A program made the position numbers and the translations under genes. Under the pieces are notes generated by a model that was not told the DNA's origin, searched no databases, and worked only from the letters and a program-made list of their open reading frames with translations. A stretch of 64,000 nucleotides of DNA from an uncultured Lachnospiraceae bacterium (GTDB taxonomy: Bacteria; Bacillota; Clostridia; Lachnospirales; Lachnospiraceae): NCBI GenBank assembly GCA_902775555.1, contig CACYMQ010000001.1, forward strand, positions 146,201-210,200. Direction: 5' to 3'. Below are positions 15,878 to 42,380 of this stretch, piece after piece. Numbering within the stretch: the first letter of the stretch is position 1; every line of letters starts with the position of its first letter.

Positions 15878-18778
15878 CTATGGATTCTGGCATGCTCCCG
15901 AATCATTGAAGATATAGACCTTTTTACCGATCTTCTTCGAACCGGTCACGATATATCCCTTTGAATCAAAGTAATACCACTTTCCGTCGATCTTCAGCCA
16001 CTGACTCTTCGCGTACCATTTCTTTGTATCCTGATAGTACCAGCCTACCTTGTCCTTCTTCCATTTTGCCTTTGGCTTGTAGGTCCAGCTGCCGTTCTTA
16101 TTCAACCAGTAACCCTTGCAATACTCGTTGGAAGCCATATAACCATTGGCTTTGAAATAATACCACTTACCGTCGATCTTCTGCCACTGGTTCTTCGGAT
16201 ACCAGCCCTTGGTATCTTCGATCCAGTAACCCTTGGAGTTCTGTTTCCAACTCATGGTGTACTTATAGGTCTGGGTTCCGTCCTTGTTGTACCACTTACC
16301 CTTAACCCACTCGTTGGAGTACTTTGCAGCGGGTTTCAGTTTCGGAATAACGGTCTGCTTCTTAAGGATCGTTCCGCATACGGAGCAATGGCTTCCTTCC
16401 GTCAGTCCTTCCTTTGTGGTGGTTGCTGCTACCGCCGGATCGATCACAGCTTTATGTCCCGTTGCTTTGATCGTCTCTGTCTTCGTTATACCGCAAATCT
16501 CACAGGTGTATGTCATGACACCATTTGCCGTACAGGTTGCGGCTTTTGTAACTTTCCCTTTATCCCAGGGATGCGGACAGATCTTTGTGATGTTCACCTT
16601 ATCATCCAGGCACAACAATGCATAGGTATATATATCCTCCTTTTCATCGTATTTATCGTAATAGTAATACAACTCTGCACCCTCATGCTCAGGTTCAACT
16701 GATTCATATGCCAGCAGCAGATTCGGGTTTCCACCAAGATTTAAAGAACTGATCTTATTTCCGGCACAATTCAGAGAATCCAGGAATCTAAGACCATCGA
16801 TATTCAGTGCAGTGAGCTCATTATCTCTGCAACCCAGCGTAATGAGCTTGCCACAGGAACCAAGATCCAGCGTCGTCAGCTGATTTCCGGAACAGTGAAG
16901 GGTCTCAAGGGAAGAACAACCACTAAGATTTAAGGATGTGATCATATGATCCGAACAATCCAGATAGTTCAGGGAACTGCAGCCACTGACATCCAGTTTC
17001 GTCAGAGAGCCATATCCACAGGAGATATACTCAAGTTCCTTAAGACCACTCACATTCAGGGATTGCAATGGACAATTTGAACAATACAGTCTCTCCAGTT
17101 TTGTATTCTTTCTAAGATCCAGGGACTTTATGGGACAATCACTGTAAGATAGTTCCTCCAGATTCCTGAAATAACCGATTCCTGTCAGATTCACAGGATA
17201 AGGCCAGGGGCGGCTCAGAGATGTTACCAGATCCAGTTCTCCCTGCTTAAACCCGCCGCTCTGATCCAGATCAAACTGTTTCAGAGAATTTCGGAAGTTT
17301 TCATCCGGGAAGTAGGTGGAATCCAGTTTTACGATATCCCCTTTCTCGGAGTTCGTGATCTCCACATCCGAATCGCAGTAGAAATTCAGATCTCTGAAAT
17401 CGTTCTTGTCATACAGATGATGACCTGACACATTATCATAGGATTCATCCCAACCACTTGAATATACATAAGCGATCATAGGAACGACATCCAGGTTCAG
17501 AGTAGAGATATCATTGTCATTACAATACAGTTCGCGAAGATTCGGAGCTGCACTGAGATCCAGCTTTGTGATTTGATTACTTTGGCAATCCAAATAGTTC
17601 AGTTTCGGATTATTTTTCATGGCCAGCGCCGTGATCTTATTATTGGAACTCCTCAACCCTTCAAGATTCTCACAGCCACTGACATCCAGTTCTTTGATCC
17701 GACATCCCGTACAATAAACATTTTCCAGTTTCGTCTTTCCTGCCAGATCGATCTTTGAAAGGATTGAATTGTAAGAGCAATCAAGATACACGAGTTTTGA
17801 TGCCTCGCTTAGATCCAGTTCCGTAAGATCACAATCGTCACATTCCAGATAACTAAGATCTTTACATCCTTTCAGATTGATAGACTCAAGATCCCCATTT
17901 GAACCTGCATGGATGGTTTCTATCCTACTGCAGGAGCTGACATCGAGAGACCTCAACTTGTTATAACTACAGGACAGGCTCTCCAATGCTGACAGGTTTG
18001 CAAGATCCAGGTTTTTTATCGCATTGCTACTTACATTCAGAGAAACCAATGCGTTACACTTTGACAGATCCACTGTCCTCAGCTTATTACTGGAGTAATC
18101 CAGATTTGTCAGTTTGCTGCATCCGCTGAGATCCAGCTTCTCCAGCTCGTTTCCGGCACAATCAAAGTAAGTTAATGCCGTTTTTGTACCCAGCTTCAGA
18201 TCATTTATATTATTATAATCACATTCCAAATGGTCCAAAGCAGACTGTTTGCTGACATCCAGGGAACCCAACTGATTGGAAGTGCACTTTAAAAGTTTCA
18301 GTTTCAGATTCTGACCGAGCGACAATTCTGTCAATTGGTTATTATCGCAACGCAGTGTTTCCAGATCCGGATTTGATTTAAGATCGATGGTCTGAATCTG
18401 ATTATCCGAAAAATCCAGGTACTTCAGTTTTGTATTCTTGCTGACATCCAGTTCCGTCAGAGAGTTTTCCTCCACTTCCAGAGTCTCCAGTTCCGTCAGA
18501 TACTCGATCCCCTTCAAACTGGAAATGTCACACCATCCCACATACAGTTCTTTCAAAGAAGCAATCTCCGTCTGGGATAACATCCCGTCTCCGTCATATT
18601 CATCCTGATCTATGTCCAATAGTCTGGACCTGAAATGATCATCTTCAAAATGCGCCGCATCGATCGGGACATCGCCGTCTGCCGCATATACCTTACCCGA
18701 AGCAGAACCCAATGACAGCCCTCCCGCGATCAAAGCTGCTGCCATAGCAGCAGTGGTCAATAGTTTCCTCCTTCTCAT
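15878..18778 (-). CDS. Secreted leucine-rich-repeat protein with CW-binding repeats
   Basis: A 966-residue surface protein. A signal peptide (MRRRKLLTTAAMAAALIAGG, then AxA around 31-33) is followed by an EF-hand-like loop (DIDQDEYDGDGML) and about 20 LRR units of the L-x-x-LDLSxCSxLxxLDCSxN type. A second EF-hand-like loop (FDLDQSGGFKQGEL, near 500) opens a second, shorter LRR block. Near 725-810 is a Cys-rich module (HPWDKGKVTKAATCT, CEICG, CSVCG) common in Lachnospiraceae surface proteins. The C-terminus holds four aromatic CW repeats such as WQKIDGKWYYFKANGYM, which in other species bind choline or glucans and hold proteins on the wall. AAAGGAGG precedes ATG 18778. A c-di-GMP-I riboswitch and a strong promoter precede it. 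Likely an adhesin; ligand unknown. Confidence 0.88.
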   Translation of the reverse strand: MRRRKLLTTAAMAAALIAGGLSLGSASGKVYAADGDVPIDAAHFEDDHFRSRLLDIDQDEYDGDGMLSQTEIASLKELYVGWCDISSLKGIEYLTELETLEVEENSLTELDVSKNTKLKYLDFSDNQIQTIDLKSNPDLETLRCDNNQLTELSLGQNLKLKLLKCTSNQLGSLDVSKQSALDHLECDYNNINDLKLGTKTALTYFDCAGNELEKLDLSGCSKLTNLDYSSNKLRTVDLSKCNALVSLNVSSNAIKNLDLANLSALESLSCSYNKLRSLDVSSCSRIETIHAGSNGDLESINLKGCKDLSYLECDDCDLTELDLSEASKLVYLDCSYNSILSKIDLAGKTKLENVYCTGCRIKELDVSGCENLEGLRSSNNKITALAMKNNPKLNYLDCQSNQITKLDLSAAPNLRELYCNDNDISTLNLDVVPMIAYVYSSGWDESYDNVSGHHLYDKNDFRDLNFYCDSDVEITNSEKGDIVKLDSTYFPDENFRNSLKQFDLDQSGGFKQGELDLVTSLSRPWPYPVNLTGIGYFRNLEELSYSDCPIKSLDLRKNTKLERLYCSNCPLQSLNVSGLKELEYISCGYGSLTKLDVSGCSSLNYLDCSDHMITSLNLSGCSSLETLHCSGNQLTTLDLGSCGKLITLGCRDNELTALNIDGLRFLDSLNCAGNKISSLNLGGNPNLLLAYESVEPEHEGAELYYYYDKYDEKEDIYTYALLCLDDKVNITKICPHPWDKGKVTKAATCTANGVMTYTCEICGITKTETIKATGHKAVIDPAVAATTTKEGLTEGSHCSVCGTILKKQTVIPKLKPAAKYSNEWVKGKWYNKDGTQTYKYTMSWKQNSKGYWIEDTKGWYPKNQWQKIDGKWYYFKANGYMASNEYCKGYWLNKNGSWTYKPKAKWKKDKVGWYYQDTKKWYAKSQWLKIDGKWYYFDSKGYIVTGSKKIGKKVYIFNDSGACQNP

Positions 18779-18848: not shown

Positions 18849-18956
18849 TAATAAAGCAACTGGCTATCATACTTGACGCAATACTCTACACCCCTCATCA
18901 CGCCCTTTCAGACCCTATAGCTTTGCGCCGCAGGATTTCTCCTGTTTTGCCTTTAA
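18849..18956 (-). ncRNA. c-di-GMP-I riboswitch (GEMM-I aptamer)
   Basis: The minus-strand transcript contains, in order: AAGGCAAAAC; a stem CAGGA/TCCTG capped by the GAAA tetraloop (P1b); GGCGCAAAGCTATAGGGTCT; a variable stem; and ATGATAGCCAGTTGC, the tetraloop-receptor side. These are the conserved blocks of RF01051, and they closely match Clostridium examples such as those at flagellar genes. It lies in a leader of about 185 bases before the LRR surface protein, a typical target since c-di-GMP switches cells between motile and adherent states. Confidence 0.9.
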
Positions 18957-18968
18957 AAACATACACAA

Positions 18969-29895: not shown

Positions 29896-30396
29896 TCAAT
29901 ATTTGTACTTGTTCAATGCATATACCGCCAATGCAAAGGACAGTCCTACGAGTACCTCGGAGTCGCTGTCAAACTGCATGATGTAGGTATCCGCCAGATT
30001 CAGTGCCTGACCGGGGATCAGGTACTTCTCGCATTTTACACGCATGACCGGAAGAGCACCGCGATAGACCATATAATTCCATGCGACACCGTCACCCACG
30101 ATCTCCCAGCCTTCATCGAAATCCACAATGTATCTCTGCTGGCGTGACATGGGATCTCTTTCGATGGTTCCGAACTTGTCCCTTGCACAGAACTCAAACC
30201 GTTTGGAACCCAGTCGATCGTACTTCTCCTGCACATATGCACACTCCGTGATGGTATCTGCCAGAAAGATCTTGATACGATGACCTGTTGCGATAAAATC
30301 GTCCTTGGTATAGTATACCTGTTTCCCGCGCTCATTAAAGACCTTAACGGAATCATACTCCTCCAGATCCTGCGCTTTGATAAATAGCTGTGCCAT
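29896..30396 (-). CDS. LURP-one-related (LOR/YxjI-like) protein
   Basis: A 166-residue protein with no signal peptide. The beta-strand pattern with VKVFNERGKQVYYTKDDF, then IFLADTITECAYVQEK, then a Tyr/Trp-rich second half, resembles the LURP-one-related fold shared with Tubby and scramblases (YxjI in Bacillus). Its molecular role is not established. It is monocistronic: a good promoter lies upstream (30445-30473) and a terminator downstream. Confidence 0.6.
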   Translation of the reverse strand: MAQLFIKAQDLEEYDSVKVFNERGKQVYYTKDDFIATGHRIKIFLADTITECAYVQEKYDRLGSKRFEFCARDKFGTIERDPMSRQQRYIVDFDEGWEIVGDGVAWNYMVYRGALPVMRVKCEKYLIPGQALNLADTYIMQFDSDSEVLVGLSFALAVYALNKYKY

Positions 30397-30480: not shown

Positions 30481-31056
30481 CTACTGGGCCAGGGAATACT
30501 GAATGGAGTTTACCAGGTCATCCTTGAAGATGATCAGCAGGTCACTGTTCCCCTTCTTCAGCTGGATGTTATTGACACCGTCTTCCGCCTTCTGACCGTA
30601 TGCCTTCTCTACTGCCGCCTTATCGGATCCGACATATATGCCTTCGGGTGTAGCCTGTGTATCATCACGAAGAACAACGCCCGTGATAATATTCGTACCG
30701 TCCTTCTTAAAGGTAAGGACATCGAAGCCCGCATAGCTGTATACCACATCCATACCGTCAAATGCACAGCTCTCCGCTTCATAGGTATTCTTATAGGTGC
30801 CGAGTGCGGAAATGATATCATCTGCGGGTGCCCCCATGCTGATCGTTACATCGCCCTTCTTAAAGACATATCCGTCCTCTCCAGCCGGTGCCGCTCCCTC
30901 TTTCTTCCCTGAAGCCTCAGTAGCTGCCTCCGTTGCTGCAGAAGCATTTGCCTTCGATGCGGTAGTTCCCGCATCCCCTTCCTTATTCTTGCTTCCACAG
31001 CCGGTAACAAGCAGCAGCATGGCCAGTGTCAGCGTCAACAGTTTCATTTTCTTCAT
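30481..31056 (-). CDS. Lipoprotein of unknown function
   Basis: A 191-residue protein with a lipoprotein signal peptide (MKKMKLLTLTLAMLLLVTGC, lipid-accepting cysteine at residue 20). A low-complexity Ala/Thr/Glu/Lys linker (about 21-60) is followed by a small alpha/beta domain with ISMGAPADDIISALG and VYSYAGFDVLTFKKDG, a fold-unassigned type frequent in Lachnospiraceae lipoproteins. CAGGAGG precedes ATG 31056. It is 65 bases after the SGNH gene and may be the last gene of the surface-polymer cluster. Confidence 0.75.
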   Translation of the reverse strand: MKKMKLLTLTLAMLLLVTGCGSKNKEGDAGTTASKANASAATEAATEASGKKEGAAPAGEDGYVFKKGDVTISMGAPADDIISALGTYKNTYEAESCAFDGMDVVYSYAGFDVLTFKKDGTNIITGVVLRDDTQATPEGIYVGSDKAAVEKAYGQKAEDGVNNIQLKKGNSDLLIIFKDDLVNSIQYSLAQ

Positions 31057-31121
31057 GATCGTTCCTCCTGGTATTTCGTCTTTTATCATTCATTCTTCGG
31101 GTGGTATCCCGAAGATGGATC

Positions 31122-32189
31122 TCATTTCCCGTGATAATTTGTGACCGCCCCGGTCTCCCTCAACTGTTTCTCCTGGGCAGCTCTCATTTCTTCATAATAG
31201 TCGATCTTCTCCTGCCACTTTGCAGCAAGAGCGGAATCTCCCCGCCGGTCGGTGATCCCGGGCTGTTCCTTCAGGATCTTCCCGAACCAGGCACTGGACT
31301 TCTCCGCACCCGCAAGATTCAGATGAAGCCCCGCATCATAGGTATCCGTTTTGTAATCGATCCCGGTTTCATCCGCATGCTCAAGGAAATTGATATAGGT
31401 CAGCTGATTCTTCTCTGCATAATCCCGGATCTGCTGATCCCACTCCTCGAACCAGTAGGGATAACAGGATGCCGATTTGATCAGGATCAGCGTGATACCG
31501 TTTTCCTTACACAGATCCCGGATCTTATCCAGATATTCCCAGTCGATATTGCTGTAGGTATAGTCCGCCAGCGGGATCGGATCCGGGAGTTCCTCCACGG
31601 GTTTTGTGTCAACACGCATCACATATCCGTTATGGGACAGCTGCTCGGATGAAAACAGATACTCAAAATCTTCTCCCGAGAGTTCATTCCATCTGGAATG
31701 GAAACGGAGGATGGGGAACACATAGCTAAGATAGCTCTCCTCTTCCGTCATAGATGCCCTGACGGCTTCCGATTTCACGGAGGACCATCTCATCCCGTCC
31801 AGTGTCAGACGGTTATATGCCTCATTCTGCGGCTTATCATATTTCATGGAAAATACATTATACACAACGACCTTCGGCGTCTCGTAACGAAGGGTATCCT
31901 TCAGCATATAATAGGACTGCCAGATCAGCTGCTGGGGCGTCCCGCGTATCACACTTGTGATCCCATAATCCTCCCACAGCTTTATCGTGGAGAAATTGGA
32001 ATATACTTCACAGTCCCCGATAAAAAGGACATCATTATCTCCCGCATTTGCATAGTACTCCCCCGACAGCAGCCCTTCTTCATTTTCCGAGATGTACTTC
32101 GGCATCAGCAGCCGCTGCAGGAACCAGAGGGCTCCGGTCAGGCATACCAGAAAGGCCAGAACATAGATACACTTTTTCAGTTTCGTCAT
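31122..32189 (-). CDS. DltD-like membrane-anchored SGNH-fold protein
   Basis: A 355-residue protein with one N-terminal helix (about 6-24), then an extracellular SGNH domain. The first block reads VLFIGDCEVYSNF: where GDSL/DltD enzymes have the catalytic serine this one has cysteine. SVIRGTPQQLIWQSYY, KVVVYNVFSMKYDKP and DAGLHLNLAGAE follow; the last holds the D-x-x-H of the triad. Near relatives are annotated as SGNH hydrolases next to MBOAT genes. It lies 19 bases after the MBOAT gene, so it should act with it outside the membrane, as DltD does with DltB. GAGAGG precedes ATG 32189; a longer frame to 32273 lacks a site. Confidence 0.8.
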   Translation of the reverse strand: MTKLKKCIYVLAFLVCLTGALWFLQRLLMPKYISENEEGLLSGEYYANAGDNDVLFIGDCEVYSNFSTIKLWEDYGITSVIRGTPQQLIWQSYYMLKDTLRYETPKVVVYNVFSMKYDKPQNEAYNRLTLDGMRWSSVKSEAVRASMTEEESYLSYVFPILRFHSRWNELSGEDFEYLFSSEQLSHNGYVMRVDTKPVEELPDPIPLADYTYSNIDWEYLDKIRDLCKENGITLILIKSASCYPYWFEEWDQQIRDYAEKNQLTYINFLEHADETGIDYKTDTYDAGLHLNLAGAEKSSAWFGKILKEQPGITDRRGDSALAAKWQEKIDYYEEMRAAQEKQLRETGAVTNYHGK

Positions 32190-32208
32190 ATGTACCACCT
32201 CTCTTCGA

Positions 32209-33783
32209 TCAGAACTGATTATAAATGAACTGGGTGGCGTCATAACCGATGCCATACGCGCCGAACACCACAACCACCAGGATCAGCACAAGAAGAAGCA
32301 GAAAATGCAGGATCACCGGCTTCGTATCCATCCTCTGATCGATCGCTTTCCGTTCGGCGAGACAGCTGACGATAAAGATCAGGATCACGCCGATCCCTGC
32401 CACAATGAGATCCGCTGCGGTAGCACCCAGCTTAAGAAAACTCCCGTCCGAAAGTGCTCCCCAGTTTGAAGTGGTGAACGCGGACCCGACCATGCGGAAG
32501 GTCAGCGGCACATCCCTGTATACGTCCAGGATCCGGATCATCCCCATAAGCCAGAATGTGCGGACGATCTGTACACCGTTCCAGAAGGCTGTGTTGGAGA
32601 ATCCGAAGCGTTCATGGAATTTCTTATACAGAGGGTTCAGCTCCTGGGATACCAGCAGTACAAGACAGTTCAGCATACCCCAGACGATAAAGTTCCAGGC
32701 TGCCCCGTGCCATACACCGGTTGCAAACCATACGATTATGGTGGAAAGATATACGGGGATCCGCTTTCCGAGGGCCGGTCCCAACTTCTCCCGTGATTTT
32801 TTTGAGATCTTCAGCATCCAGCCACTGACGGAAATGGGATAAAAGATATAATCCTTAAACCATGTACCCATGGTGATATGCCAGCGTCTCCAGTATTCGG
32901 CAATGTTCTTTGAGAAGTACGGACGTTCAAAATTCTCCGCCACGGGGATCCCCAGCATCCTTGCCACGCCGATGGTGATATCGATCCCTCCGGTGAAATC
33001 CGCATATAGCTGCCATGCATAGAAGAAGATCGTTGCAATTACATAGACGCCGGGGTATTTATCCGTATCTCCCGTAAGTGAAGCGATGACGGGAGCCAGA
33101 CGGTCGGCGATCACCAGCTTCTTAAAGAAGCCCCATACAACTCTCAGCAGGCCGTAATAGAACTCCCTTGCATTGAAAGAATGCTGTGCAAAGAGTCCCT
33201 TGGACAGATCGTCAAAACGGCTGATAGGACCCTGGATCACCTGCGGGAAGAAGGACGTGAAGAGTGCTGCCTTCAGGGGATTTCTCTCTGCAGGGTATTT
33301 CCGTCTGTATACATCGATCACATAACCAAGACTCTGGAACATGTAAAAGGAGATTCCGAGAGGCAGGATGAAATTCCGCGGAGTAAACTCCGTCCCGAAC
33401 ATCCCGTTCAGATTCTCCAGTATAAAATCCGTATATTTGATCACTCCTAGGATCCCAAGGTTCACAAGCAGGCAGAGGACCAGTACTCCCTTCGCTCTCC
33501 GGGTCATACCGGCTTTATATGCCTTCTTTTCCTCCCTGGTGATCCCTTTATGCTCTTTTACCCAGGCATCCTGTCTTCCCCAGATGCTTTCGATCCAGAC
33601 GGTCGCTCCATAGGTGGTCAGGATCGTGATCCCCATGAAGATCAAGTACTTAGGGCCCGAATAGGTATAAAAAGCAATGCTCCCGACCAAAAGAAGCATC
33701 CACTGGACCTTCTTCGGAAGCACATAATACAGCAGGATCAATCCCGCCAGAAAGATGATAAATTGAAAAGATACAAACGACAT
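32209..33783 (-). CDS. MBOAT-family membrane O-acyltransferase (DltB/AlgI-like)
   Basis: A 524-residue multi-pass membrane enzyme that moves an acyl group from a cytosolic carrier to an extracellular acceptor. Family blocks: FPQVIQGPISRF, the arch YADFTGGIDITIGVARMLG (quoted in part as DFTGGIDI), FSKNIAEYWRRWHITMGTWF in part, and GVWHGAAWNFIVWG with the putative catalytic histidine. The hydrophobic pattern gives roughly 11-12 helices. Only 7 bases separate it from the carrier-protein gene, strong support for a carrier-fed reaction. The length is larger than DltB (about 400) and close to AlgI/PatA types. Confidence 0.92.
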   Translation of the reverse strand: MSFVSFQFIIFLAGLILLYYVLPKKVQWMLLLVGSIAFYTYSGPKYLIFMGITILTTYGATVWIESIWGRQDAWVKEHKGITREEKKAYKAGMTRRAKGVLVLCLLVNLGILGVIKYTDFILENLNGMFGTEFTPRNFILPLGISFYMFQSLGYVIDVYRRKYPAERNPLKAALFTSFFPQVIQGPISRFDDLSKGLFAQHSFNAREFYYGLLRVVWGFFKKLVIADRLAPVIASLTGDTDKYPGVYVIATIFFYAWQLYADFTGGIDITIGVARMLGIPVAENFERPYFSKNIAEYWRRWHITMGTWFKDYIFYPISVSGWMLKISKKSREKLGPALGKRIPVYLSTIIVWFATGVWHGAAWNFIVWGMLNCLVLLVSQELNPLYKKFHERFGFSNTAFWNGVQIVRTFWLMGMIRILDVYRDVPLTFRMVGSAFTTSNWGALSDGSFLKLGATAADLIVAGIGVILIFIVSCLAERKAIDQRMDTKPVILHFLLLLVLILVVVVFGAYGIGYDATQFIYNQF

Positions 33784-33790
33784 GGGTCAC

Positions 33791-34018
33791 TTACTCATCC
33801 ATCAGTTTCTCGATCAGAGCCCAAAGCGCCTCCGCCGAATTGAAATTCTCCGGAATGATCTCCGACGCGGGGATCCTTACATCAAATGTATCACTTACCT
33901 CCGTAATGAGAGATACGATATCAAAGGAATCCAGGATCTTATCATCCACAAGCGTTGTACAGGTTTCATAATCCACCTCGGGATGCAGTTCCTTTAAGAT
34001 ATCCAGCAGTTCTTCCAT
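33791..34018 (-). CDS. Acyl/aminoacyl carrier protein (DltC-like)
   Basis: A 75-residue four-helix carrier. The phosphopantetheine attachment serine is S31 in ILDSFDIVSLI; DltC and ACPs share D-S-(L/F)-D here. The protein is acidic, as expected. ATG 34018 is preceded by CGGAGG at six bases. It stands between the adenylating enzyme and MBOAT genes. Confidence 0.9.
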   Translation of the reverse strand: MEELLDILKELHPEVDYETCTTLVDDKILDSFDIVSLITEVSDTFDVRIPASEIIPENFNSAEALWALIEKLMDE

Positions 34019-34053
34019 GATCAACCTCCGTTTTCATTTACATATATTCCGTA

Positions 34054-34122
34054 AGATCCCTCGTCACTTCGTTCCTCGGGATGACATTGTTTTTCCTCGT
34101 CACTTCGTTCCTCGGGATGACA
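34054..34122. repeat. Dispersed element, two tandem copies overlapping the end of the dltA-like gene
   Basis: A 28-base exact direct repeat beginning CCTCGTCACTTCGTTCCTCG (34059-34086 and 34095-34122); the first copy is preceded by AGATC as in other family members. Bases 34100-34122 lie inside the DltA-like coding sequence. Confidence 0.8.
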
Positions 34123-35620
34123 TATATTTCTTCTTCAGCAGGCTTCGGTCCACCTTCCCGTTCGGGGTATAGGGCATGCTGTCCAGGCGGAACACTCCAT
34201 GGGGCAGCATATAGCGGGGAAGCTTCTTCTTCAGCTCCTGTTTCAGGGACAGTTCCTCCGGATCCCCCACATAATAAAGACCGATCTTATTCTTATCGGG
34301 ATCAAATACACAGCAGACGCTCCGGATCCCCTCAAGGAGTGCGGTCACGGCCTCGATCTCTCCGAGCTCGATCCGGTGTCCCATATGTTTGATCTGATCA
34401 TCCTTTCTGGAAAGGAAGATCAGTTCTCCTCTTTCATTCCTCTTTGCCAGGTCCCCGGTCTTATAAACGATCTCCGGATAGAAGGGATTCAGGGGATTCT
34501 GTACATAACTCTCCCCGGTCTTCTCCGGATTATTGAAATACCCCAGTGTAACGGAGGTTCCCCGAACCGTGATCTCACCGGCTTCACCGTCCGGCACTTC
34601 CTTCCCATCCTCCGAAAGAAGAAGGATCTCCGTATTTCGGAAGGGTCCTCCGATGGGGATCACCTCTCCCGGCTCAAAATCCCGTTCCACCCTGTAATAG
34701 CAACACATGCCTGTAGCTTCGGTAGGACCGTACAGATTGGTAAACCGCGCTTCGGGAAGCGCCTCTCTCCATAACTTCAGCTGCTTTATGGGGAAGACCT
34801 CACTTCCGAAAGCGATATTCTTCAGATATTTCGGTACCACCGTATCAAATGTGCCAAAGGAGGATACGATGGTAAGGGCCGAAACCACCCAGCATACCGT
34901 ATTGATCTTATACTCATTCAGGAATTCCACCAGTTTCACCGGGAACATGAACAGAATCTTCGGGATCAGATATGTGGTGGCTCCGAACTTCAGTGTGGGA
35001 TACAGTTCCTTAAGACAGGCATCGAAGTAAAGCGGTGTCTGGTTTCCGAATACCGTATCCTCATTAAACTCCAGCACCTCCGACAGTGTCTCGATGTAAT
35101 CGATGACGGAGCGATGACATGCCACAACTCCCTTCGGGACTCCTGTGGAACCGGAAGTGAATACAATATAGATGGGATCCACATCCAGACTCTTTCTACG
35201 GATCTCCAGCAAAGCCTCCTCATCAATCTCTTCCCGGATCAGATCCTCATACCGCATCAGCTGTTTATCATATCCCAGTTCTCTGGCGTGACCCTCCGTC
35301 TCCTCATCACAGATGACCGCCCGGGGGTTCAGTGTATCAAAGATCAGCCGGATCCGATGTACCGGCATCTCCTCATCAATGGGGACGTAGTAACAGCCTC
35401 CATACAGCACGCCGAAGAATGCATTTACCATATTCGGATGCTTTCTCATATAGACCACTACCGCTTCCCGGTAGAACCCTCTTTTATGCAATGCACTTCC
35501 GATGGCCTTCGCACCATCGGACAGTTCACGGAAGGTGATCCCCTCCTCTCCGTTGGAGAAAGCAGTTTTATCCGGGACCCTGTCTATAGTCCCTTCCATA
35601 TATTCCAAAACATTCGTCAT
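34100..35620 (-). CDS. DltA-like amino acid/acyl adenylating ligase
   Basis: A 506-residue ANL ligase that would activate a carboxylate with ATP and load it on the adjacent carrier protein. Seen: TSGSTGVPKG (155-164), D200 in YFDACL, which in amino-acid-activating domains binds the substrate amino group, YGPTEAT (297-303), YKTGDLAKRN and the C-terminal lysine K489 in NGKVDR. DltA normally has FCGE before the YGPTEAT block; here it is FGSE (271-274), without the cysteine tied to D-alanine selectivity. So an amino acid is likely, D-alanine uncertain. GGAGA precedes the ATG. The last residues (SSRGTK) and stop come from a repeat element. Confidence 0.88.
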   Translation of the reverse strand: MTNVLEYMEGTIDRVPDKTAFSNGEEGITFRELSDGAKAIGSALHKRGFYREAVVVYMRKHPNMVNAFFGVLYGGCYYVPIDEEMPVHRIRLIFDTLNPRAVICDEETEGHARELGYDKQLMRYEDLIREEIDEEALLEIRRKSLDVDPIYIVFTSGSTGVPKGVVACHRSVIDYIETLSEVLEFNEDTVFGNQTPLYFDACLKELYPTLKFGATTYLIPKILFMFPVKLVEFLNEYKINTVCWVVSALTIVSSFGTFDTVVPKYLKNIAFGSEVFPIKQLKLWREALPEARFTNLYGPTEATGMCCYYRVERDFEPGEVIPIGGPFRNTEILLLSEDGKEVPDGEAGEITVRGTSVTLGYFNNPEKTGESYVQNPLNPFYPEIVYKTGDLAKRNERGELIFLSRKDDQIKHMGHRIELGEIEAVTALLEGIRSVCCVFDPDKNKIGLYYVGDPEELSLKQELKKKLPRYMLPHGVFRLDSMPYTPNGKVDRSLLKKKYMSSRGTK

Positions 35621-35652
35621 TTTTCCGTCTCCGAGATCCTTGATCTCTGTCT

Positions 35653-36981
35653 TTATTTGACCGTGAGGATATAATCCCCGTCCTTATACTCTACCGAAAC
35701 CGGACTCACCAGGGGGGTGGCCGGATACGGATTCTCCTTCAGTTCATACAGATGCGGGCGCCACTTGTCCGCCCATGCCTTGAGTTCCTGATCCGTGGCA
35801 AGGAAAGGAACAAACTGCCTGATATAGATCGGAGACGGATCCATATTGTACCAGTTTCCGTCAACATTTACCTTCAGCCAGTAATGGGTTCCCGTTTCCG
35901 TATTCTTCTCTATCATGACAGACAGGAATCCGGCGCGTTCCATCAGGATCTTACATACAAGAGCATGGGTATAACAGTCTCCGCTGTTCCCCTCCAATCC
36001 GAGGATTGCCTGATCCGCATCATTTTCATGGGACCCGGTCTGGATCCATGGGATCTCAAGACGTGTCCAGCGGAAGATGGCAAATGCCTTCTCGATATCC
36101 GTCATCCCGTCCTTAAGGATGAGGCGAAGACGTTCATCCGCCTTGGAATACAGCATCTCCACATCCTGATAATTGGCAGGCTTCTCTTCCACGTGAACCT
36201 TGATGGTCACATTACTGCTCCTTCCGCAAAAATCCGTCGCGGTATAGGTCACAGGATACACCCCCGGAACATCCTGATTAACTGCCGAATTGTCGATGGT
36301 CAGGACCGGATCCGGATCCAGTGCATCTTCGACGGTGATCCCGTTTCGGTATGTGATGGATTCACCGGTATAAATGGTACGATCGTCCGCTCCGTTGATC
36401 ACCGGAACCTTCGTCTCATCGTATACCGTCAGCTTTGCCTGAAGAAGTGTAACATTTCCTCCGAGATCCTCCAGACGGATACTGACATTTTGTATGCCTT
36501 CTTTGGAGACATCCGGTTCATTGGCATAACTGACACTGATCTCCGTCACATCATCATACGACAGGAGAAACTCCTTCGGCCTGGGTTTGTCACCCACCTT
36601 CACCATCAGATCCTCCGTCTCCGCAACCGGTGCTGTCGTATCCCGGATCGACAGTTTCGATTCCGCATGCAGAAAGAGCCAGGAAAAATCAATGGTATGA
36701 TCCCCCGGCTTCCTCATATTGACAGCCTCCAGATCTGTATTGCAGTTCACGCTGATATCGGGATCATAAAGGAAGTCCTCCACCGCCGGAGTTTTCGATC
36801 CGGCTTCCAGTGTCAGCTCTTCACGGATATTTGAATAAAAACGATATACAAGATATGCACCTACAACTATTAATATGACCAACGTCGGTATCAGGAGAAT
36901 AAGCAGTCTTTTTCTTCTTTTCTTCCTTGAAGCGATCTGGATCTTCTCCAGCACCGACGCCTTTGTACTCTTTTCATCCAT
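35653..36981 (-). CDS. Membrane-anchored transglutaminase-like protein with Ig-like domains
   Basis: A 442-residue protein. A basic cytosolic start (KKRRKR) is followed by one transmembrane helix (about 26-48). The extracellular part has two or three Ig-like/HYR-type repeats, for example VPVINGADDRTIYTGESITY (read in part) and PGVYPVTYTATDFCG. The C-terminal third is a transglutaminase-like domain with Cys in NSGDCYTHALVCK, His in TGTHYWLKVNVDG and Asp in WYNMDPSP, the full Cys-His-Asp triad. These domains act as peptidases or cross-linkers of wall-associated proteins. The ribosome site is distant (GGAG 13 bases). It is 32 bases upstream of the dltA-like gene and so belongs to the cluster. 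Confidence 0.85.
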   Translation of the reverse strand: MDEKSTKASVLEKIQIASRKKRRKRLLILLIPTLVILIVVGAYLVYRFYSNIREELTLEAGSKTPAVEDFLYDPDISVNCNTDLEAVNMRKPGDHTIDFSWLFLHAESKLSIRDTTAPVAETEDLMVKVGDKPRPKEFLLSYDDVTEISVSYANEPDVSKEGIQNVSIRLEDLGGNVTLLQAKLTVYDETKVPVINGADDRTIYTGESITYRNGITVEDALDPDPVLTIDNSAVNQDVPGVYPVTYTATDFCGRSSNVTIKVHVEEKPANYQDVEMLYSKADERLRLILKDGMTDIEKAFAIFRWTRLEIPWIQTGSHENDADQAILGLEGNSGDCYTHALVCKILMERAGFLSVMIEKNTETGTHYWLKVNVDGNWYNMDPSPIYIRQFVPFLATDQELKAWADKWRPHLYELKENPYPATPLVSPVSVEYKDGDYILTVK

Positions 36982-37020
36982 CGGATAAACAATACTCCAT
37001 CCTAAAAATAAAGTTCCGTA

Positions 37021-37941
37021 TCAATCACGGGATCCTGATAAATATTCCTTATACGGAACATCCGGTGCAAACTGGAAATCATGCCATACACCCCTCTCCT
37101 CCACCGGAGGAAATTTCATGTAGTCATCTCCGTAGCTGTCTCTCAGGAACCTGTCATACCCTACGGGTGCCGGGACCTTCAGGAACTCAAAATCCAGCCA
37201 TACCGTGGATCGGAAGATCTTCTTATCACTGATATACTCATCTCCGTAACGGAAGGGAAAGCTGATGAGCCCGACTTCCCTGCTATCCTTCCACCGGTGC
37301 CGTATGGCCGTTCCGTTTACCTTCTTGTATACCGATACGGGATCAAAAGAAATGAACGGAAGATGAAGGATCTTATGTGCAAGCCTGGTCAGCTTATTGG
37401 GATTTATATTGAACACATAAGCATTTGCCAGGATATTTCTGGTCTGATTTAAAAAGAGGACCCATTTTCTTTCAAGTCCCTTCTTCGGAGCTCCGTCCAA
37501 CGGCATGATATCCACATAGATGCCGTTATTGCATTTATTCTTTCCGGATACCATGATCCCTGTGGTGTTGCTGTTTCGAAGACGCGCAAAGGGATTGTAG
37601 TAATCCACATCCGACTGCGGGGTCTGAAGGAAATACGGTTCCGGAAATTCCGTCTCCAGCTGAAGCAGCTTCTGATAATCCGCTCTCGGCATTACCACAT
37701 CAAAATCATCATCCCAGGGAATGAAGCCCTTATGGCGCACCGCACCGATCAGGGTTCCGTAAGAGATCCAGTATCTTAAGTGATGCCTTTCACATACCTC
37801 GCTTATTGCCCGGAACAGATCCAGTTCGATCGCCCAGACCTTCTTCATCTCCGTCGGCACTTCATAATCACAGCGCACCTCCGGCTTCAGGAAGTCCTTT
37901 GGAAGGAATCCGTTTTCCAGCAGTCTTTCACATTCTGTCAT
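37021..37941 (-). CDS. LicD-family phosphotransferase
   Basis: A 306-residue LicD protein, a family that transfers phosphocholine or related phospho-groups onto surface glycans. The signature is ISYGTLIGAVRHKGFIPWDDD (given in part: GTLIGAVRHKG and PWDDDFDV), followed by MPRADYQKLLQLE. The family's nucleotidyltransferase fold uses these aspartates for metal. GGAGG lies 11 bases before ATG 37941. With the SDR and ATP-grasp genes just upstream it suggests that this cluster builds a modified polymer. The real donor is unknown; no choline kinase or cytidylyltransferase is in view. Confidence 0.9.
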   Translation of the reverse strand: MTECERLLENGFLPKDFLKPEVRCDYEVPTEMKKVWAIELDLFRAISEVCERHHLRYWISYGTLIGAVRHKGFIPWDDDFDVVMPRADYQKLLQLETEFPEPYFLQTPQSDVDYYNPFARLRNSNTTGIMVSGKNKCNNGIYVDIMPLDGAPKKGLERKWVLFLNQTRNILANAYVFNINPNKLTRLAHKILHLPFISFDPVSVYKKVNGTAIRHRWKDSREVGLISFPFRYGDEYISDKKIFRSTVWLDFEFLKVPAPVGYDRFLRDSYGDDYMKFPPVEERGVWHDFQFAPDVPYKEYLSGSRD

Positions 37942-37994
37942 GTTCGTTTTATCCTCCGATGTAAAAGCTTTCCATCCTCTTTGAAAAGCATATC

Positions 37995-38765
37995 CTATAT
38001 GTACTCTCCTGCAGTGATACGGAATGTGGAGCCCGTCATCATGGAGCTGGCATCACTGAACAGATAGACCAGCGCTTCCACATAATCACTGCGCTCACAC
38101 ATGCGTCCCATAGGGAGGATCTCCGCAGCTCTCTGCCGGAGTTCTGCCTCGCTTTCTCCCAGGGAGATCCGAAGAGCCACCTCTCCCTCCGTCGGCGTCC
38201 AGCCCAGAGTCAGGTAATTGCAGCGTATCATTTCCGAGGCATACTGATGGGCGATATGCTCCATCAGGATCCGGAGTACGCCCTTACTGCAGGCATATGC
38301 CGCACGATCCTTCTGTCCGCCCCATGCATGGGCCGAACCGGTCAGCACAATACTTCCTCCGCCATTCATCCGCATATATTTCACTGCCTGCTGGCAGCAG
38401 AAAAATGCCGCTTTGAAATTCACGTCCATGACCCAGTCAAAGGTCTCCTCATCGCAGGTATCCAGCGGCGATACAGGTGTAACACCGGCGTAATTGAAGA
38501 AGCCGTCAATCTTCCCGAACTTCCGGTAGGTCTCATCGAAAAGATTCCTGCAATCCTCCACCTTCAGCAGGTCGGTATGCACGAATATCGCTTCCGATCC
38601 ATAGGTTTTGATATTCTTTACGATCTTCTTCCCGGCCTTCTCATCCCTGCCGCCGATCACGACCTTCGCGCCCTCCTGGCCACAGACCTCTGCCACGGCC
38701 CGTCCGACACCCTTGGTGCCTCCGGAGATCACGATCACTTTGTCTTTTAATCTATTCTCTGCCAT
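37995..38765 (-). CDS. Short-chain dehydrogenase/reductase
   Basis: A 256-residue SDR with VIVISGGTKGVGRAVAEVCG (TGxxxGxG-type cofactor loop), NYAGVTP in place of the usual NNAG, catalytic S (VLTGSAHAWG) and Y/K in YACSKGVL: the YxxxK motif reads YACSK and is intact. NAD(P) choice cannot be settled. GGGAG precedes ATG 38765; a TTG at 38780 is less likely. It is between the ATP-grasp and LicD genes, so its substrate is probably a sugar or polyol building block of the surface polymer. Confidence 0.88.
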   Translation of the reverse strand: MAENRLKDKVIVISGGTKGVGRAVAEVCGQEGAKVVIGGRDEKAGKKIVKNIKTYGSEAIFVHTDLLKVEDCRNLFDETYRKFGKIDGFFNYAGVTPVSPLDTCDEETFDWVMDVNFKAAFFCCQQAVKYMRMNGGGSIVLTGSAHAWGGQKDRAAYACSKGVLRILMEHIAHQYASEMIRCNYLTLGWTPTEGEVALRISLGESEAELRQRAAEILPMGRMCERSDYVEALVYLFSDASSMMTGSTFRITAGEYI

Positions 38766-38827
38766 GTTCTGTACTCCCAATCACAGGCCGTAGCCTCAAG
38801 ACTCCCCTGTCCTGCTCAGAATAACAT

Positions 38828-40117
38828 CTACAGCTGCAGTGCCTTATCCACATCGAAGCCCCTGAGACAGAGGTCTTCACCATTCTCATCATATACATGA
38901 ACCGTCGCCATATAATGCTTCAGACGCTCTGCCAGCTGTTCTTTGGTATCACATACCAGATAGAGACGGGTCAGGACCTGCTTCTCATTTCCGATCCATT
39001 CGGGAAGGACCTCGTCCCCCTCGTGGAGTCTCTGGATGTTCTCGATGGCGCAGGGATCGTCCTCCCAGGCAGAGAGTCCATCGATCCTTGCGATCTTACC
39101 TTTCTTCAGCAGGAACCACAGGGTTGCCGCATGCTTACCGCGAAGATAGGTGTCATCATCCTTTGCCAGATCCACATCGCCCTCGGAACCGGTCAGTGCA
39201 AAACGGATCAGCATCTCTCTCTGATCAAAGCCGTGAATGGCCTTCATCAGAAGATGCGGTGCTTCTCCCTGCAGACGGAAGCCCGTATCATAAACATAGA
39301 ATTCCCCGTTCTCAAAGAAGCCCGACAGCATCAGGATCCCGTTCCGTATCCCGATCTCCTTGAACATCCGTACCGCATTTTCATGCATACGGCTGAAATA
39401 TTCATCCAGATGCTTGGACGGATAGGTTCCGCCCAGACATACACGGGACAGTCCCGGCTGTTCGTCCGTCGTATACCGGTCGTAGATGCAGGATGCGGAG
39501 CACTCTCCGTCCTTGAAGGTATAATACATACCCATGTCTTCGCACTGCATATATTTTTCTACGATAAAACGCTTCTTGTAGGAAGCATCCAGTGCGATCT
39601 GTACGCCTTTTCTCAGTTCTTCCTCATTGTAGGCTACGGTCATTCCGACACCGCCGCCGTTGTCAACGGGCTTGATCATGACCGGATATACGATCTTGTC
39701 CAGATCCTCACGCTTCATATCGGCATCCAGATAGAACTCCGGGATACCGTGTACTCCGTAACGTTCGCAGGTAGCTTTAAAGATATCCTTAAATGCAAAT
39801 ACATCCACGATCTGCTGTGTGGCATAGCAGGGAAGATTCAGGGCTTCACAGACCTTGCAGTAGGAAGGGACCAGGATATCGGCCACGCCCACCAGCACGC
39901 CGTCCACCTTCTCCTCATTTGCAAGCGCCACAAGCCCCGGAACATCCATTCCGTCTACATCATATGCCTTCCACGCTGCTTTCTTCGCCGGATCCGTGTG
40001 TCTTCCGGAGGATACGATGGTCTTGATCCCCATATTGTTTGCGATCTCCACCAGGGGGGTCGTCTCCGGATTACCGCCAAGGATCAGCAGCTTCTTGCCT
40101 TCAAATTCACGCTCCAT
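38828..40117 (-). CDS. ATP-grasp ligase of unknown substrate
   Basis: A 429-residue ATP-grasp protein. The N-terminal preATP-grasp Rossmann domain begins KKLLILGGNPETTPLVEIA, as in PurK- and carbamoyl-phosphate-synthase-like enzymes. VYPVMIKPVDNGGGVGMTVA (in part VMIKPVDNGGG) is the ATP-binding lysine and glycine loop, and RLQGEAPHLLMKAIHG lies in the metal-binding region. These enzymes join a carboxylate to an amine or thiol through an acyl-phosphate. GGAGG lies five bases before ATG 40117, overlapping an earlier in-frame ATG at 40129. Clustering with LicD and SDR suggests it makes a precursor or peptide-like decoration. Confidence 0.85.
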   Translation of the reverse strand: MEREFEGKKLLILGGNPETTPLVEIANNMGIKTIVSSGRHTDPAKKAAWKAYDVDGMDVPGLVALANEEKVDGVLVGVADILVPSYCKVCEALNLPCYATQQIVDVFAFKDIFKATCERYGVHGIPEFYLDADMKREDLDKIVYPVMIKPVDNGGGVGMTVAYNEEELRKGVQIALDASYKKRFIVEKYMQCEDMGMYYTFKDGECSASCIYDRYTTDEQPGLSRVCLGGTYPSKHLDEYFSRMHENAVRMFKEIGIRNGILMLSGFFENGEFYVYDTGFRLQGEAPHLLMKAIHGFDQREMLIRFALTGSEGDVDLAKDDDTYLRGKHAATLWFLLKKGKIARIDGLSAWEDDPCAIENIQRLHEGDEVLPEWIGNEKQVLTRLYLVCDTKEQLAERLKHYMATVHVYDENGEDLCLRGFDVDKALQL

Positions 40118-40184
40118 ATTTTCCTCCATATTGTTTATATATTCATGTAATATTCCGGGGAGTTTCTTCCCCGTACAGTCGATA

Positions 40185-40275
40185 AGATCCTTCGGCTTCG
40201 CCTCAGGATGACAGGTACGGCTTCGCCTCAGGATGACTCCTTCCTGTCATTCTGAGCCCGCAGGGCGAAGAATCT
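40185..40275. repeat. Inverted pair of the dispersed element between the MBL and ATP-grasp genes
   Basis: AGATCCTTCGGCTTCGCCTC onward (40185-40213) and TGTCATTCTGAGCCCGCAGG onward to AATCT (40245-40275) are opposite-facing members of the family, with a shorter partial repeat CGGCTTCGCCTCAGGATGAC between (40218-40236). Together they can fold into a long hairpin. Confidence 0.75.
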
Positions 40276-40336
40276 TACAGTACGCTCCCTCATCTGTCTG
40301 CATGGATGCACACCATGCGAAGAATCTTACAGTACG
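40265..40336. repeat. 20-base direct repeat spanning the MBL gene end
   Basis: GCGAAGAATCTTACAGTACG occurs at 40265-40284 and 40317-40336. The right copy contains the stop and last codons of the MBL-fold gene; the left lies in the intergenic space and looks like a duplicate of the gene end. Confidence 0.75.
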
Positions 40337-41091
40337 ATCCCCTCACCCATCTGCATCAGTCTGCAGGGAAGCTTCTTCTCCTGCATGATCTCGTAAAATT
40401 TCCCGGGATCCCCGTGATGGCATGCAAACATACCATAATGACAGGGAATCGTGATCCCCGGCTTCAGAAGCTCAGCCAACTGGGGAAGATCCTCTTCATT
40501 CATATTTCCGTAGGCTCCGTTGATGGGGCCGATCAGCACATCCAGATCTCTGGGAAGGGAAATGGCCCTATCCAGCCTGAGGCAGGTATCTCCGGCCTCG
40601 TAAACCTTCTTTCCGTCTACCGTCACAATGACACCCACCGCATCCGGTGCACCGGTCCCGTGATCACAGTCCACGAAGTCGATCGTAAAACTGCCTGCCG
40701 TTACCCTGTCCTTCGGAGCCACATAGGTGATCTGATCACCGTAATACTCCAGCTGCAGCTGGTGGATCAGCTTCTCACAGTCTACAGAACATAACAGCTT
40801 CGTTCTGTGATTTGCGATCAGTTCGGGAACTGCATCCATATCAAAATGATCCAGATGCGGATGCGTACAGATCACGACATCAAATTCCAGTTCCTCCGGA
40901 AGAAGCATCTGCGGCAGCAGTCTCCGATATCCGTGATGTCCCTCAACTCTCTCCACACATTCGGAGAGATAGAGATCGATGGCAAGCAGTTCTCCTGCCT
41001 TGCTCTTAATAATAAATCCCGCCTGTCCGGCTGAGAACAGATGTGTCTTTCCGACAGGCGCCGTCCTGATCTTTTCCGCAAGCCGCTGCAT
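40327..41091 (-). CDS. MBL-fold metal-dependent hydrolase (UlaG-like)
   Basis: A 254-residue metallo-beta-lactamase-fold enzyme. THPHLDHFD is the HxHxDH metal motif, CDHGTG, EAGDTCL and a final PCHYGMFACHHG give further ligands. It resembles the UlaG (L-ascorbate-6-phosphate lactonase) branch, which covers many unrelated hydrolases. GGAGGG precedes ATG 41091. It is placed between the glycosyltransferase (59 bases) and the repeat-rich gap before the ATP-grasp gene. Substrate unknown; a phosphodiester or lactone of a sugar-phosphate intermediate is possible. Confidence 0.85.
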   Translation of the reverse strand: MQRLAEKIRTAPVGKTHLFSAGQAGFIIKSKAGELLAIDLYLSECVERVEGHHGYRRLLPQMLLPEELEFDVVICTHPHLDHFDMDAVPELIANHRTKLLCSVDCEKLIHQLQLEYYGDQITYVAPKDRVTAGSFTIDFVDCDHGTGAPDAVGVIVTVDGKKVYEAGDTCLRLDRAISLPRDLDVLIGPINGAYGNMNEEDLPQLAELLKPGITIPCHYGMFACHHGDPGKFYEIMQEKKLPCRLMQMGEGIVL

Positions 41092-41150
41092 ATGTTACCC
41101 TCCCCCAATAATACTCCTGATCCATAGTTATCGATTCCGGCCGAACCGGT

Positions 41151-42380
41151 TTATGCATGAGAATTCCCGCCATAGAGGAATCGTTTTGTCAGACGCAGTC
41201 TCAGCTCCTCTGCCTTTGGTACGGAAACCGTCAGGATCCGTCTCCTGTTCACGCCGATCCCGATCAGCCTCTCTATAGCTTTCTCCGAAAATGTTTCACT
41301 GACAGATGCGATCAGAACAAAGTCATATTCCATTTCGGTAATCTGTTCCACCGGATCCACATCCAGGCAGCATCTCCTGTATTCCCAGTAATCATCATCT
41401 ACCCAGCCGGTAACTCTGCAGTGTCCGGTCTCCTTGAACCGGTTCACCAGCTGCTGGCCGAAGGTCCCGGCGCTGTAGATCACGACCCTCTTCCCGTAAT
41501 AGGCTTTATCAAAGGTGGAATAATCATCCTCCGGCAATCGTCCGCCGGAGCGCATGATACAGATGGAAAGCACATAATCCGTGATCTGCTGTGCCAGATG
41601 AAGTCCCTCTGCATCTTCGATACTGTCCTTCCATCGGTTCATATATTCATAAAGGCTCCTAAGCTTCCCTGCTTCCGCCGCAAAGCTTGTGCTCTGCTTC
41701 AGCATGGAGTCTTCTCTCTGTCTGTAATGATAGTCCGTATGCTCCGTGACTGCGATCTTCCTGCACCGGAGAAGTGCAGGATACGTGACTGCCGCATCTT
41801 CGCCGATGGAGATTGCTTCATCCACCTGCATTTGCGGATCATATACAATGTCCCGTCTAAAGAGTTTATTCCAAACGTAGGTGGAGATCCCGGGTCTGTA
41901 GAAGCTTCCGTCGGACATCATATGCTTCTGAACCCGTTCGTACAGCTCCTCCCCTTCATAGACTCCTGCAGGGATACGGTCCACCAGTTCCGCGGCGCGG
42001 TCGAAGATCACTCTTGTCTGACCCGCACAGATCATATCCGCACCTGTTTCACGATAAACCTGCACCATCTTTTCGATAAAAGAGGGGCCGATCCAGTCAT
42101 CTCCGTCCACATACGAAATCAGACCACCCGTTGCTACTGCAAGGCCGGCCTTTCGTGCAGATACCAGTCCGCCGTTTTCCTTATGGATCACACGGATCCT
42201 CGAATCCTTGGAAGCATACAGATCACAGATCTCGGGACAACGATCCTTTGATCCGTCATCCACCAGAATGATCTCCAGATTTCCGTAGGTCTGGTTCACG
42301 ATACTCTCAATGCAGATCCCCAGATATCTGTCGATCATGTAGATCGGAACTATAATGCTGATCAGCGGTTGCTCTTCCAT
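41151..42380 (-). CDS. Family 2 glycosyltransferase with C-terminal Rossmann-like domain
   Basis: A 409-residue enzyme. The GT-A domain shows SIIVPIYMIDRYLG, NLEIILVDDGSKDR, KENGGLVSARKAG and the DxD-like VDGDDW. After about residue 300 a separate domain starts KRVVIYSAGTFGQQLVNRF and includes VTGWVDDD, a small Rossmann-type fold found fused to glycosyltransferases. No transmembrane helix is seen, so it works at the inner face. GGGAG lies six bases before ATG 42380. It seems to be first of the surface-polymer cluster, with its own promoter at 42453-42481. Confidence 0.88.
   Translation of the reverse strand: MEEQPLISIIVPIYMIDRYLGICIESIVNQTYGNLEIILVDDGSKDRCPEICDLYASKDSRIRVIHKENGGLVSARKAGLAVATGGLISYVDGDDWIGPSFIEKMVQVYRETGADMICAGQTRVIFDRAAELVDRIPAGVYEGEELYERVQKHMMSDGSFYRPGISTYVWNKLFRRDIVYDPQMQVDEAISIGEDAAVTYPALLRCRKIAVTEHTDYHYRQREDSMLKQSTSFAAEAGKLRSLYEYMNRWKDSIEDAEGLHLAQQITDYVLSICIMRSGGRLPEDDYSTFDKAYYGKRVVIYSAGTFGQQLVNRFKETGHCRVTGWVDDDYWEYRRCCLDVDPVEQITEMEYDFVLIASVSETFSEKAIERLIGIGVNRRRILTVSVPKAEELRLRLTKRFLYGGNSHA

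Follow-up and report, generated by a model that had tools for sequence, protein, structure and literature searches.

A recurrent Dlt-like gene cluster of Lachnospiraceae with a candidate D-aspartate ligase and a separable, putative glycan module

The window analysed here is a 64,000-nucleotide (nt) stretch from an uncultured Lachnospiraceae bacterium (assembly GCA_902775555.1, contig CACYMQ010000001.1, positions 146,201 to 210,200), whose minus strand carries a gene cluster that resembles the D-alanylation operon dltABCD. The cluster consists of two modules: a core that encodes a transglutaminase-like protein (TG), an adenylating ligase, a carrier protein, an MBOAT, an SGNH-fold protein and a lipoprotein (30481-36981), and an upper module that encodes a GT2 glycosyltransferase, an MBL-fold hydrolase, an ATP-grasp ligase, an SDR oxidoreductase and a LicD-family transferase. 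An earlier note, made from the sequence alone, had read ten or eleven genes here, with the Dlt-like ones in the order A-C-B-D. Open reading frames (ORFs) and Pfam matches return the same gene list and order and place every named gene on the minus strand, and the eleventh member is the lipoprotein gene, which lies 65 nt downstream of the SGNH gene.

41151-42380, minus strand: GT2 glycosyltransferase, upper module (Pfam PF00535)
40327-41091, minus strand: MBL-fold hydrolase, UPF0173-like, upper module (PF12706)
38828-40129, minus strand: ATP-grasp ligase, upper module (PF02786)
37995-38765, minus strand: SDR oxidoreductase, upper module (PF13561/PF00106)
37021-37941, minus strand: LicD-family transferase, upper module (PF04991, E = 1.6e-45)
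35653-36981, minus strand: TG with an N-terminal hydrophobic segment and Ig-like and transglutaminase-like domains, core (PF16403, PF01841)
34100-35620, minus strand: DltA-like adenylating ligase, core (PF00501)
33791-34024, minus strand: carrier protein, core (TIGR01688 below cut-off; D32 and S33 conserved)
32209-33783, minus strand: MBOAT with a fused C-terminal FIYNQF acyl-shuttle motif, core (PF03062)
31122-32189, minus strand: SGNH-fold protein with GDC replacing GDS, core (PF13472 below its cut-off; predicted SGNH fold)
30481-31056, minus strand: lipoprotein, core (near the ligase in relatives; start codon checked)
30473-30445, minus strand: promoter-like site of the next gene (29896-30396), a likely downstream boundary of the unit

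The core occurs widely in Lachnospiraceae and their relatives. A scan of genome contigs for relatives of the ligase gave 116 confirmed matches, of which the best 80 were kept and underlie the locus counts given here (L numbers denote loci, G numbers genomes). Neighbours were counted within 9 kb of the ligase, and 52 of the 80 loci have enough flanking sequence for this, the other 28 lying too close to a contig end. Among the well-flanked loci, genes for TG, carrier, MBOAT and SGNH protein each accompany the ligase in 51 of 52, the lipoprotein gene in 49 and a racemase gene in 39. Membership stays much the same while the order varies, for example TG-racemase-ligase-carrier-MBOAT-SGNH-lipoprotein, ligase-carrier-MBOAT-SGNH-AsnB-TG-racemase-lipoprotein or carrier-MBOAT-SGNH-AsnB-TG-racemase-ligase-lipoprotein. 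Because the core recurs in 80 loci, and the full set of both modules in five further genomes of the window's genus, the cluster is more than a chance assembly. A search with the ligase covered one genome for each genus of the family, 150 in all; 65 had matches at E <= 1e-60 and 17, including the window's own genome, had matches of at least 57% identity, two of them partial genes. TG residues C336, H366 and D381 and carrier residues D32 and S33 are at least 95% conserved across 72 sequences of each protein. The lipoprotein had no Pfam match at E <= 1 when searched from its second residue, and its predicted fold had no structural match at E <= 0.001. In a plasmid search all matches stayed below 60% identity, and literature searches on Dlt-like systems, racemase, D-Asp, Lachnospiraceae and Blautia, judged mostly on titles and abstract openings, turned up no described account of this operon; one on rumen bacteria and teichoic acids brought up no relevant paper either.

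The racemase association escaped the earlier note. In relatives, a gene of about 240 amino acids (aa) beside the ligase encodes a PF01177 racemase (three tested), and this Pfam family is that of Asp/Glu racemases. The L064 racemase scores 207.2 bits on TIGR00035, against a cut-off of 93.1, and the closest solved protein is the aspartate racemase 1jfl, with glutamate racemase far weaker. C83 and C194 are at least 95% conserved in 51 racemase sequences, and we take this pair to be the catalytic active-site cysteines. The racemase lies near the ligase in 51 of the 80 loci and an asparagine synthase (AsnB, counted at over 50% identity to the L063 protein) in 15; both are present in 12 loci, AsnB alone in 3 and neither in 26, and one AsnB protein of these loci passes TIGR01536. 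In the one-per-genus set, the racemase (E <= 1e-25) was found in 16 of 17 genomes with the ligase vs 13 of 133 without it (Fisher p 8e-13, with the 57% identity limit for this ligase chosen after the list was seen). In two of these 16, G000 and G002, the racemase is on a different contig from the ligase, and in G087 it accompanies the carrier-MBOAT-SGNH part, with the ligase on another contig.

The ligases were compared in a set of 168 copies, comprising the window, the 80 scan loci and 87 from sampled genomes, with some genomes represented twice (158 after identical copies were dropped). An 8-residue pocket signature is the same in the window ligase and in 79 of the 80 scan-locus ligases, and the full signature is found in 96 of the 168 copies, including 61 of 62 racemase-linked ligases, the 62nd (L295) being a variant. 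Because the window ligase shares its predicted pocket with the racemase-linked ligases, its substrate is likely D-Asp or D-Asn rather than D-Ala. A tree of the ligases puts the window's genus inside racemase-linked lineages, several internal supports being only moderate, so the operon probably lost its racemase gene in this genus. In DltA, binding of the amino group is assigned to Asp-197 and D/L selectivity to Cys-269, which lies near the alpha carbon (PMC4176424). The window ligase keeps the Asp-197 equivalent, and its Cys-269 position appears to be Gly, a call that reads its FGSE motif against the FCGE motif seen in L097 and L143, with no DltA sequence aligned.

The MBOAT and SGNH proteins of the core have features that set them apart. 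MBOAT residues H302 and H359 are at least 95% conserved in 70 sequences, and in 66 of 70 homologs the C-terminus of the MBOAT fits FXYXXF, reading FIYNQF in the window; the remaining four comprise two with a shifted FIYGDRF form and two in which the tail is missing from the frame read. FXYXXF is described as the acyl-shuttle motif of DltX and PatA (PMC12148441), and the DltX C-terminus is given as FLYFGF (PMC11035591). MBOATs of other Dlt-like loci (L074-L168) end likewise, 45 of 47 in Y-x-x-F/Y and 26 of 47 in strict FXYXXF; the fused tail therefore belongs to the wider Dlt-like group and not to the window's core alone. In the SGNH protein, GDC replaces GDS in 62 of 63 homologs, and the exception, L296, is only 21% identical. 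Among ten hand-picked SGNH proteins of other ligase classes, seven have Ser and three have Cys, all three from TG-bearing sister operons (L092, L157, L163). The AlphaFold model of the SGNH protein (mean pLDDT 86.2) scores modestly against SGNH acylhydrolases, DltD, PatB and designed scaffolds; Foldseek ranks DltD (6pfx) tenth, at E 1.2e-4 and TMq 0.39, in a list of SGNH proteins and designed scaffolds. The two proteins thus have the marks of an MBOAT-SGNH acyltransferase pair, namely an SGNH-fold partner and an acyl-shuttle Tyr motif, with Cys in the partner where described ones have Ser; a literature search for Cys-nucleophile SGNH acyltransferases found no paper.

These features relate the core to three known systems. 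Like DltABCD(X), the core combines an adenylating ligase, a carrier, an MBOAT and an SGNH-fold protein in A-C-B-D order, but it falls below the corresponding models throughout: the ligase scores 263.5 bits on TIGR01734 (DltA; cut-off 559.85), the MBOAT 139.9 bits on TIGR04091 (DltB; cut-off 375), with the conserved histidines present, and the carrier 23.4 bits on TIGR01688 and 36.4 on NF003464 (DltC; cut-offs 52.35 and 68). The SGNH protein had no DltD match in Pfam at E <= 0.001, only PF13472 appearing, below its cut-off, and no DltA over its cut-off was found in the window's own genome. The core further differs from Dlt in the Cys for Ser of the SGNH protein, in its additional TG and lipoprotein, in the racemase and sometimes AsnB of its relatives, and in carrying the acyl-shuttle motif on the MBOAT C-terminus instead of on DltX, for which no separate gene was searched. 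The fused FXYXXF tail recalls PatA of the PatA/PatB peptidoglycan O-acetylation system, and PatB is a weak match to the predicted SGNH fold (E 2.1e-3), whereas the core, unlike PatA/PatB, encodes a carrier and a ligase; non-Dlt MBOAT/SGNH pathways lack a carrier and are evidently fed by acyl-CoA (PMC12148441). The third comparison is with racD, aslA and asnH of Lactococcus lactis, with which wall D-Asp/D-Asn is made, an aspartate racemase and an asparagine synthase supplying the wall D-amino acid (PMC4155827). There, an ATP-grasp ligase joins D-Asp to the lysine of the peptidoglycan precursor, whereas the core uses an adenylating ligase, carrier and MBOAT/SGNH pair.

The upper module has a separate distribution. 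It adjoins the core in only 5 of the 80 loci plus the window. Among 61 genomes of the genus, 13 carry this ligase and 48 do not; the modules are adjacent in 6 of the 13 (G000, G199, G155, G197, G195, G198), although a contig end cuts the full set within the ATP-grasp gene in G198 and the contigs of G197 and G195 end before the lipoprotein gene. They are apart in 5 of the 13 (G173, G175, G165, G209, G170), where, as far as the contigs reach, the upper module is followed by a gene for a 166-aa protein and no core, and in two of these five the upper module lies beside ppdK. In the remaining two, G183 and G184 (79% and 87% complete), no ATP-grasp gene was found. At 91% identity or above, the ATP-grasp protein is present in 11 of the 13 ligase-bearing genomes and in none of the 48 others, of which two have 33-36% relatives. 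As independent evidence for one pathway this co-occurrence was rejected: lepA is at least 93% identical across the 13 (the next genome has 91%), and a lepA tree, built from 30 of the 57 genomes that have this gene, places the 11 of the 13 that it includes in one clade (support 0.87), so that the counts amount to about one event. Joined and apart states are mixed on this tree and, by eye, need about two changes. In G116, from another genus, the upper module without LicD belongs to an exopolysaccharide cluster that also encodes an aminotransferase and a sugar-phosphate transferase; its ATP-grasp protein is 79% identical to that of the window, and at E <= 1e-60 the ligase finds no match in that genome. 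The neighbourhood test proposed in the earlier note therefore gave a mixed answer, and a single pathway for all the genes, as that note had proposed, is not established. As for the individual proteins, LicD membership is clear (PF04991, 156.4 bits against a cut-off of 22.6), and five of the six solved relatives listed for the MBL hydrolase carry the name UPF0173 hydrolase. The ATP-grasp protein was considered as an AslA-type D-Asp ligase and this was dropped: the NCBIfam matches shown (biotin-carboxylase-like, D-Ala-D-Ala-ligase-like and others) are all below cut-off, and most of the solved relatives of the protein are biotin carboxylases, in a comparison that did not contain AslA itself. Our guess would be that the upper module serves a sugar, making an acyl or phospho group for it or attaching one to it. 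A tandem LicD pair occurs at L202 and L205 (G170 and G173), both loci without the core.

Common transcription of the upper module and core is possible, judging from the spacing and signals at the locus. The gaps between genes, given earlier as 7-81 nt with one of 209, measure 59, 197, 62, 53, 39, 32, 75, 7 and 19 nt. Short GATGAC-containing repeats occupy the 197-nt gap and its edges (40193-40341), as had been noticed, and are also found in and around the 75-nt ligase-carrier gap (34059-34123). A longer GT2 ORF extends to 42476, but a promoter-like TTGCTA-17-TATAAT lies at 42481-42453, ahead of GT2; a similar sequence precedes GT2 in L111, and none is evident in L115. A sequence like the site at 30473-30445 precedes the same downstream gene in L203 and L204, both without the core. 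Since a scan for promoter-like sites found 14, against a shuffled mean of 15.2, these two sites rest on their position and on the similar sequences of relatives; terminator-like sites numbered 14 against a shuffled mean of 9.1. Within the 39-nt LicD-TG gap the promoter-like scan gave no site, the end of LicD carries a weak terminator-like site of 5 pairs (37030-37016), and three minus-strand promoter-like sites fall inside the MBL and ATP-grasp genes. In the three loci examined (G173, G175 and G184), TG is preceded by a TATAAT-like site of its own.

We read the core, at somewhat better than even confidence, as a Dlt-like surface aminoacylation system whose ligase most likely uses D-Asp (or D-Asn), with the upper module as a separate unit. 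This reading is favoured because the racemase stays linked to the ligase through several gene orders and accompanies it across genomes, because AsnB joins 15 of the loci and L. lactis offers a precedent (PMC4155827), and because the DltA, DltB and DltC cut-offs are all missed in a genome with no DltA above cut-off. Gene membership and recurrence, the links to racemase and AsnB, the common pocket, GDC, FXYXXF and the separability of the modules are seen in the sequences themselves. From these, and taking the membrane route from the biochemistry of Dlt and PatA/PatB, we infer that the ligase would adenylate a D-amino acid of acidic type, with D-Asp (or D-Asn) the likeliest, and load it on the carrier; the MBOAT would carry it over the membrane to the Tyr in the FIYNQF tail at its own C-terminus; and the SGNH-fold protein would accept it on Cys as a thioester and hand it on to a surface polymer. 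TG and the lipoprotein may help, or may trim or recognise the acceptor. The D-amino acid would come, in most relatives, from the operon-borne aspartate-type racemase; in the window's genus, where that gene is gone from the operon, a homolog of about 40% identity elsewhere in the genome may be the source. The GT2-MBL-ATP-grasp-SDR-LicD genes would form a glycan or phospho-decoration module that the core came to adjoin. Of the earlier proposal of acylation outside the membrane with an unusual group, the Dlt-like half is thus upheld, the group probably being a non-canonical aminoacyl. In line with the earlier remark that no teichoic acid polymerase is in view, the TagF-type PF04464 was not found at E <= 1e-5 in the window's own genome, which is 99.49% complete.

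Several observations weigh against D-Asp or D-Asn as substrate. The window operon itself has no racemase gene, and although the homolog of about 40% identity is present elsewhere in all 13 ligase-bearing genomes of the genus (in one as a fragment only), it is also present in 25 of the 48 without the ligase and so gives weak support. No racemase lies near the ligase in 29 of the 80 loci, some of them at contig ends, and a well-flanked subclade with the DAP pocket variant (L318, L321, L322, L324) lacks it; G065 has the ligase, no racemase at threshold and a deviating pocket. The L064 racemase also scores above the cut-off of the cysteate racemase (CuyB) model NF052483, which makes D-cysteate possible, and AsnB could instead serve L-Asn. 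A lysine at pocket position '239' was rejected as proof of an acidic substrate, being non-diagnostic: the most frequent of the other ligase classes has it too, and no racemase is linked to that class.

The substrate could instead be a different acidic or Asp-like amino acid: D-Glu, D-cysteate or L-Asn/L-Asp. The racemase passes both the CuyB and the amino acid racemase models, its Pfam family covers Asp and Glu, and D-Glu is present in any peptidoglycan maker, but AsnB points to Asp and the closest solved racemase relatives are aspartate racemases, so we hold this to be rather improbable. It is likewise unlikely that the core is a divergent ordinary Dlt system, in which the ligase activates D-alanine, the core D-alanylates (lipo)teichoic acid and the racemase serves something else. 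The gene set A-C-B-D is the same, DltA models rank second and third among the NCBIfam matches of the ligase, and at E <= 1e-30 against the DltA model the ligase is the sole match in the genome outside ORFs over 1000 aa. The genome also contains four PF00884 sulfatase-family stretches, one with a weak match to the LtaS model (45 bits, cut-off 970). An ordinary Dlt system is opposed by the model scores, the missing DltD match in Pfam, the racemase and AsnB association and the apparent Gly at the position of the selectivity-setting Cys-269 (PMC4176424). We are similarly doubtful of the single pathway of the earlier note, in which GT2, LicD, SDR, ATP-grasp and MBL proteins build a polymer unit that the core then aminoacylates. 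The 39-nt LicD-TG gap with no promoter-like site, the adjacency in six genomes and the ATP-grasp count speak for it; it is confined to one related genome group, the modules are apart in five of the 13, G116 has the upper module with no ligase match, a weak terminator-like site lies at the LicD end, and in none of the other 75 loci, some incomplete at contig ends, is the ATP-grasp gene within 9 kb of the ligase.

Among carrier-fed aminoacylations of Gram-positive surfaces, D-alanylation is the textbook case. Tentatively, and with less than even confidence, the core may represent a widespread and apparently undescribed D-aspartylation or D-asparaginylation system of gut Clostridia that is carrier-fed like Dlt, has an MBOAT-built shuttle tail like PatA and uses a Cys-nucleophile SGNH-fold transferase. 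If so, the surface would gain negative or neutral amide groups, in contrast to the positive charge added by Dlt, and the Cys thioester may favour transfer to amines, giving amides, over hydroxyls. A common gut-bacterial relative with an aspartate-type racemase dedicated to it, an SGNH Cys and a fused shuttle would show the Dlt machinery re-tooled for other amino acids, and the substrate prediction is concrete enough to be tested with one carrier-charging assay.

The Dlt-like ligases of Lachnospiraceae (L074-L169) split into several pocket classes, and these many differing pockets suggest further kinds of surface group. In six of them, the SMSV class, Ser replaces the Asp that binds the amino group, which suggests acyl substrates without an amino group, and three contigs of G000 (C13, C25, C50) carry long adenylating-enzyme ORFs (1177-2018 aa), probably peptide synthetases. 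Next to the cluster, the gene at 29896-30396 (minus strand) encodes the 166-aa protein that directly follows LicD at loci without the core; some relatives have a promoter-like site ahead of this gene. Farther along the window, a c-di-GMP-I riboswitch (18852-18961, minus strand) lies just 5′ of a gene for a large leucine-rich, probably surface protein (15878-18778).

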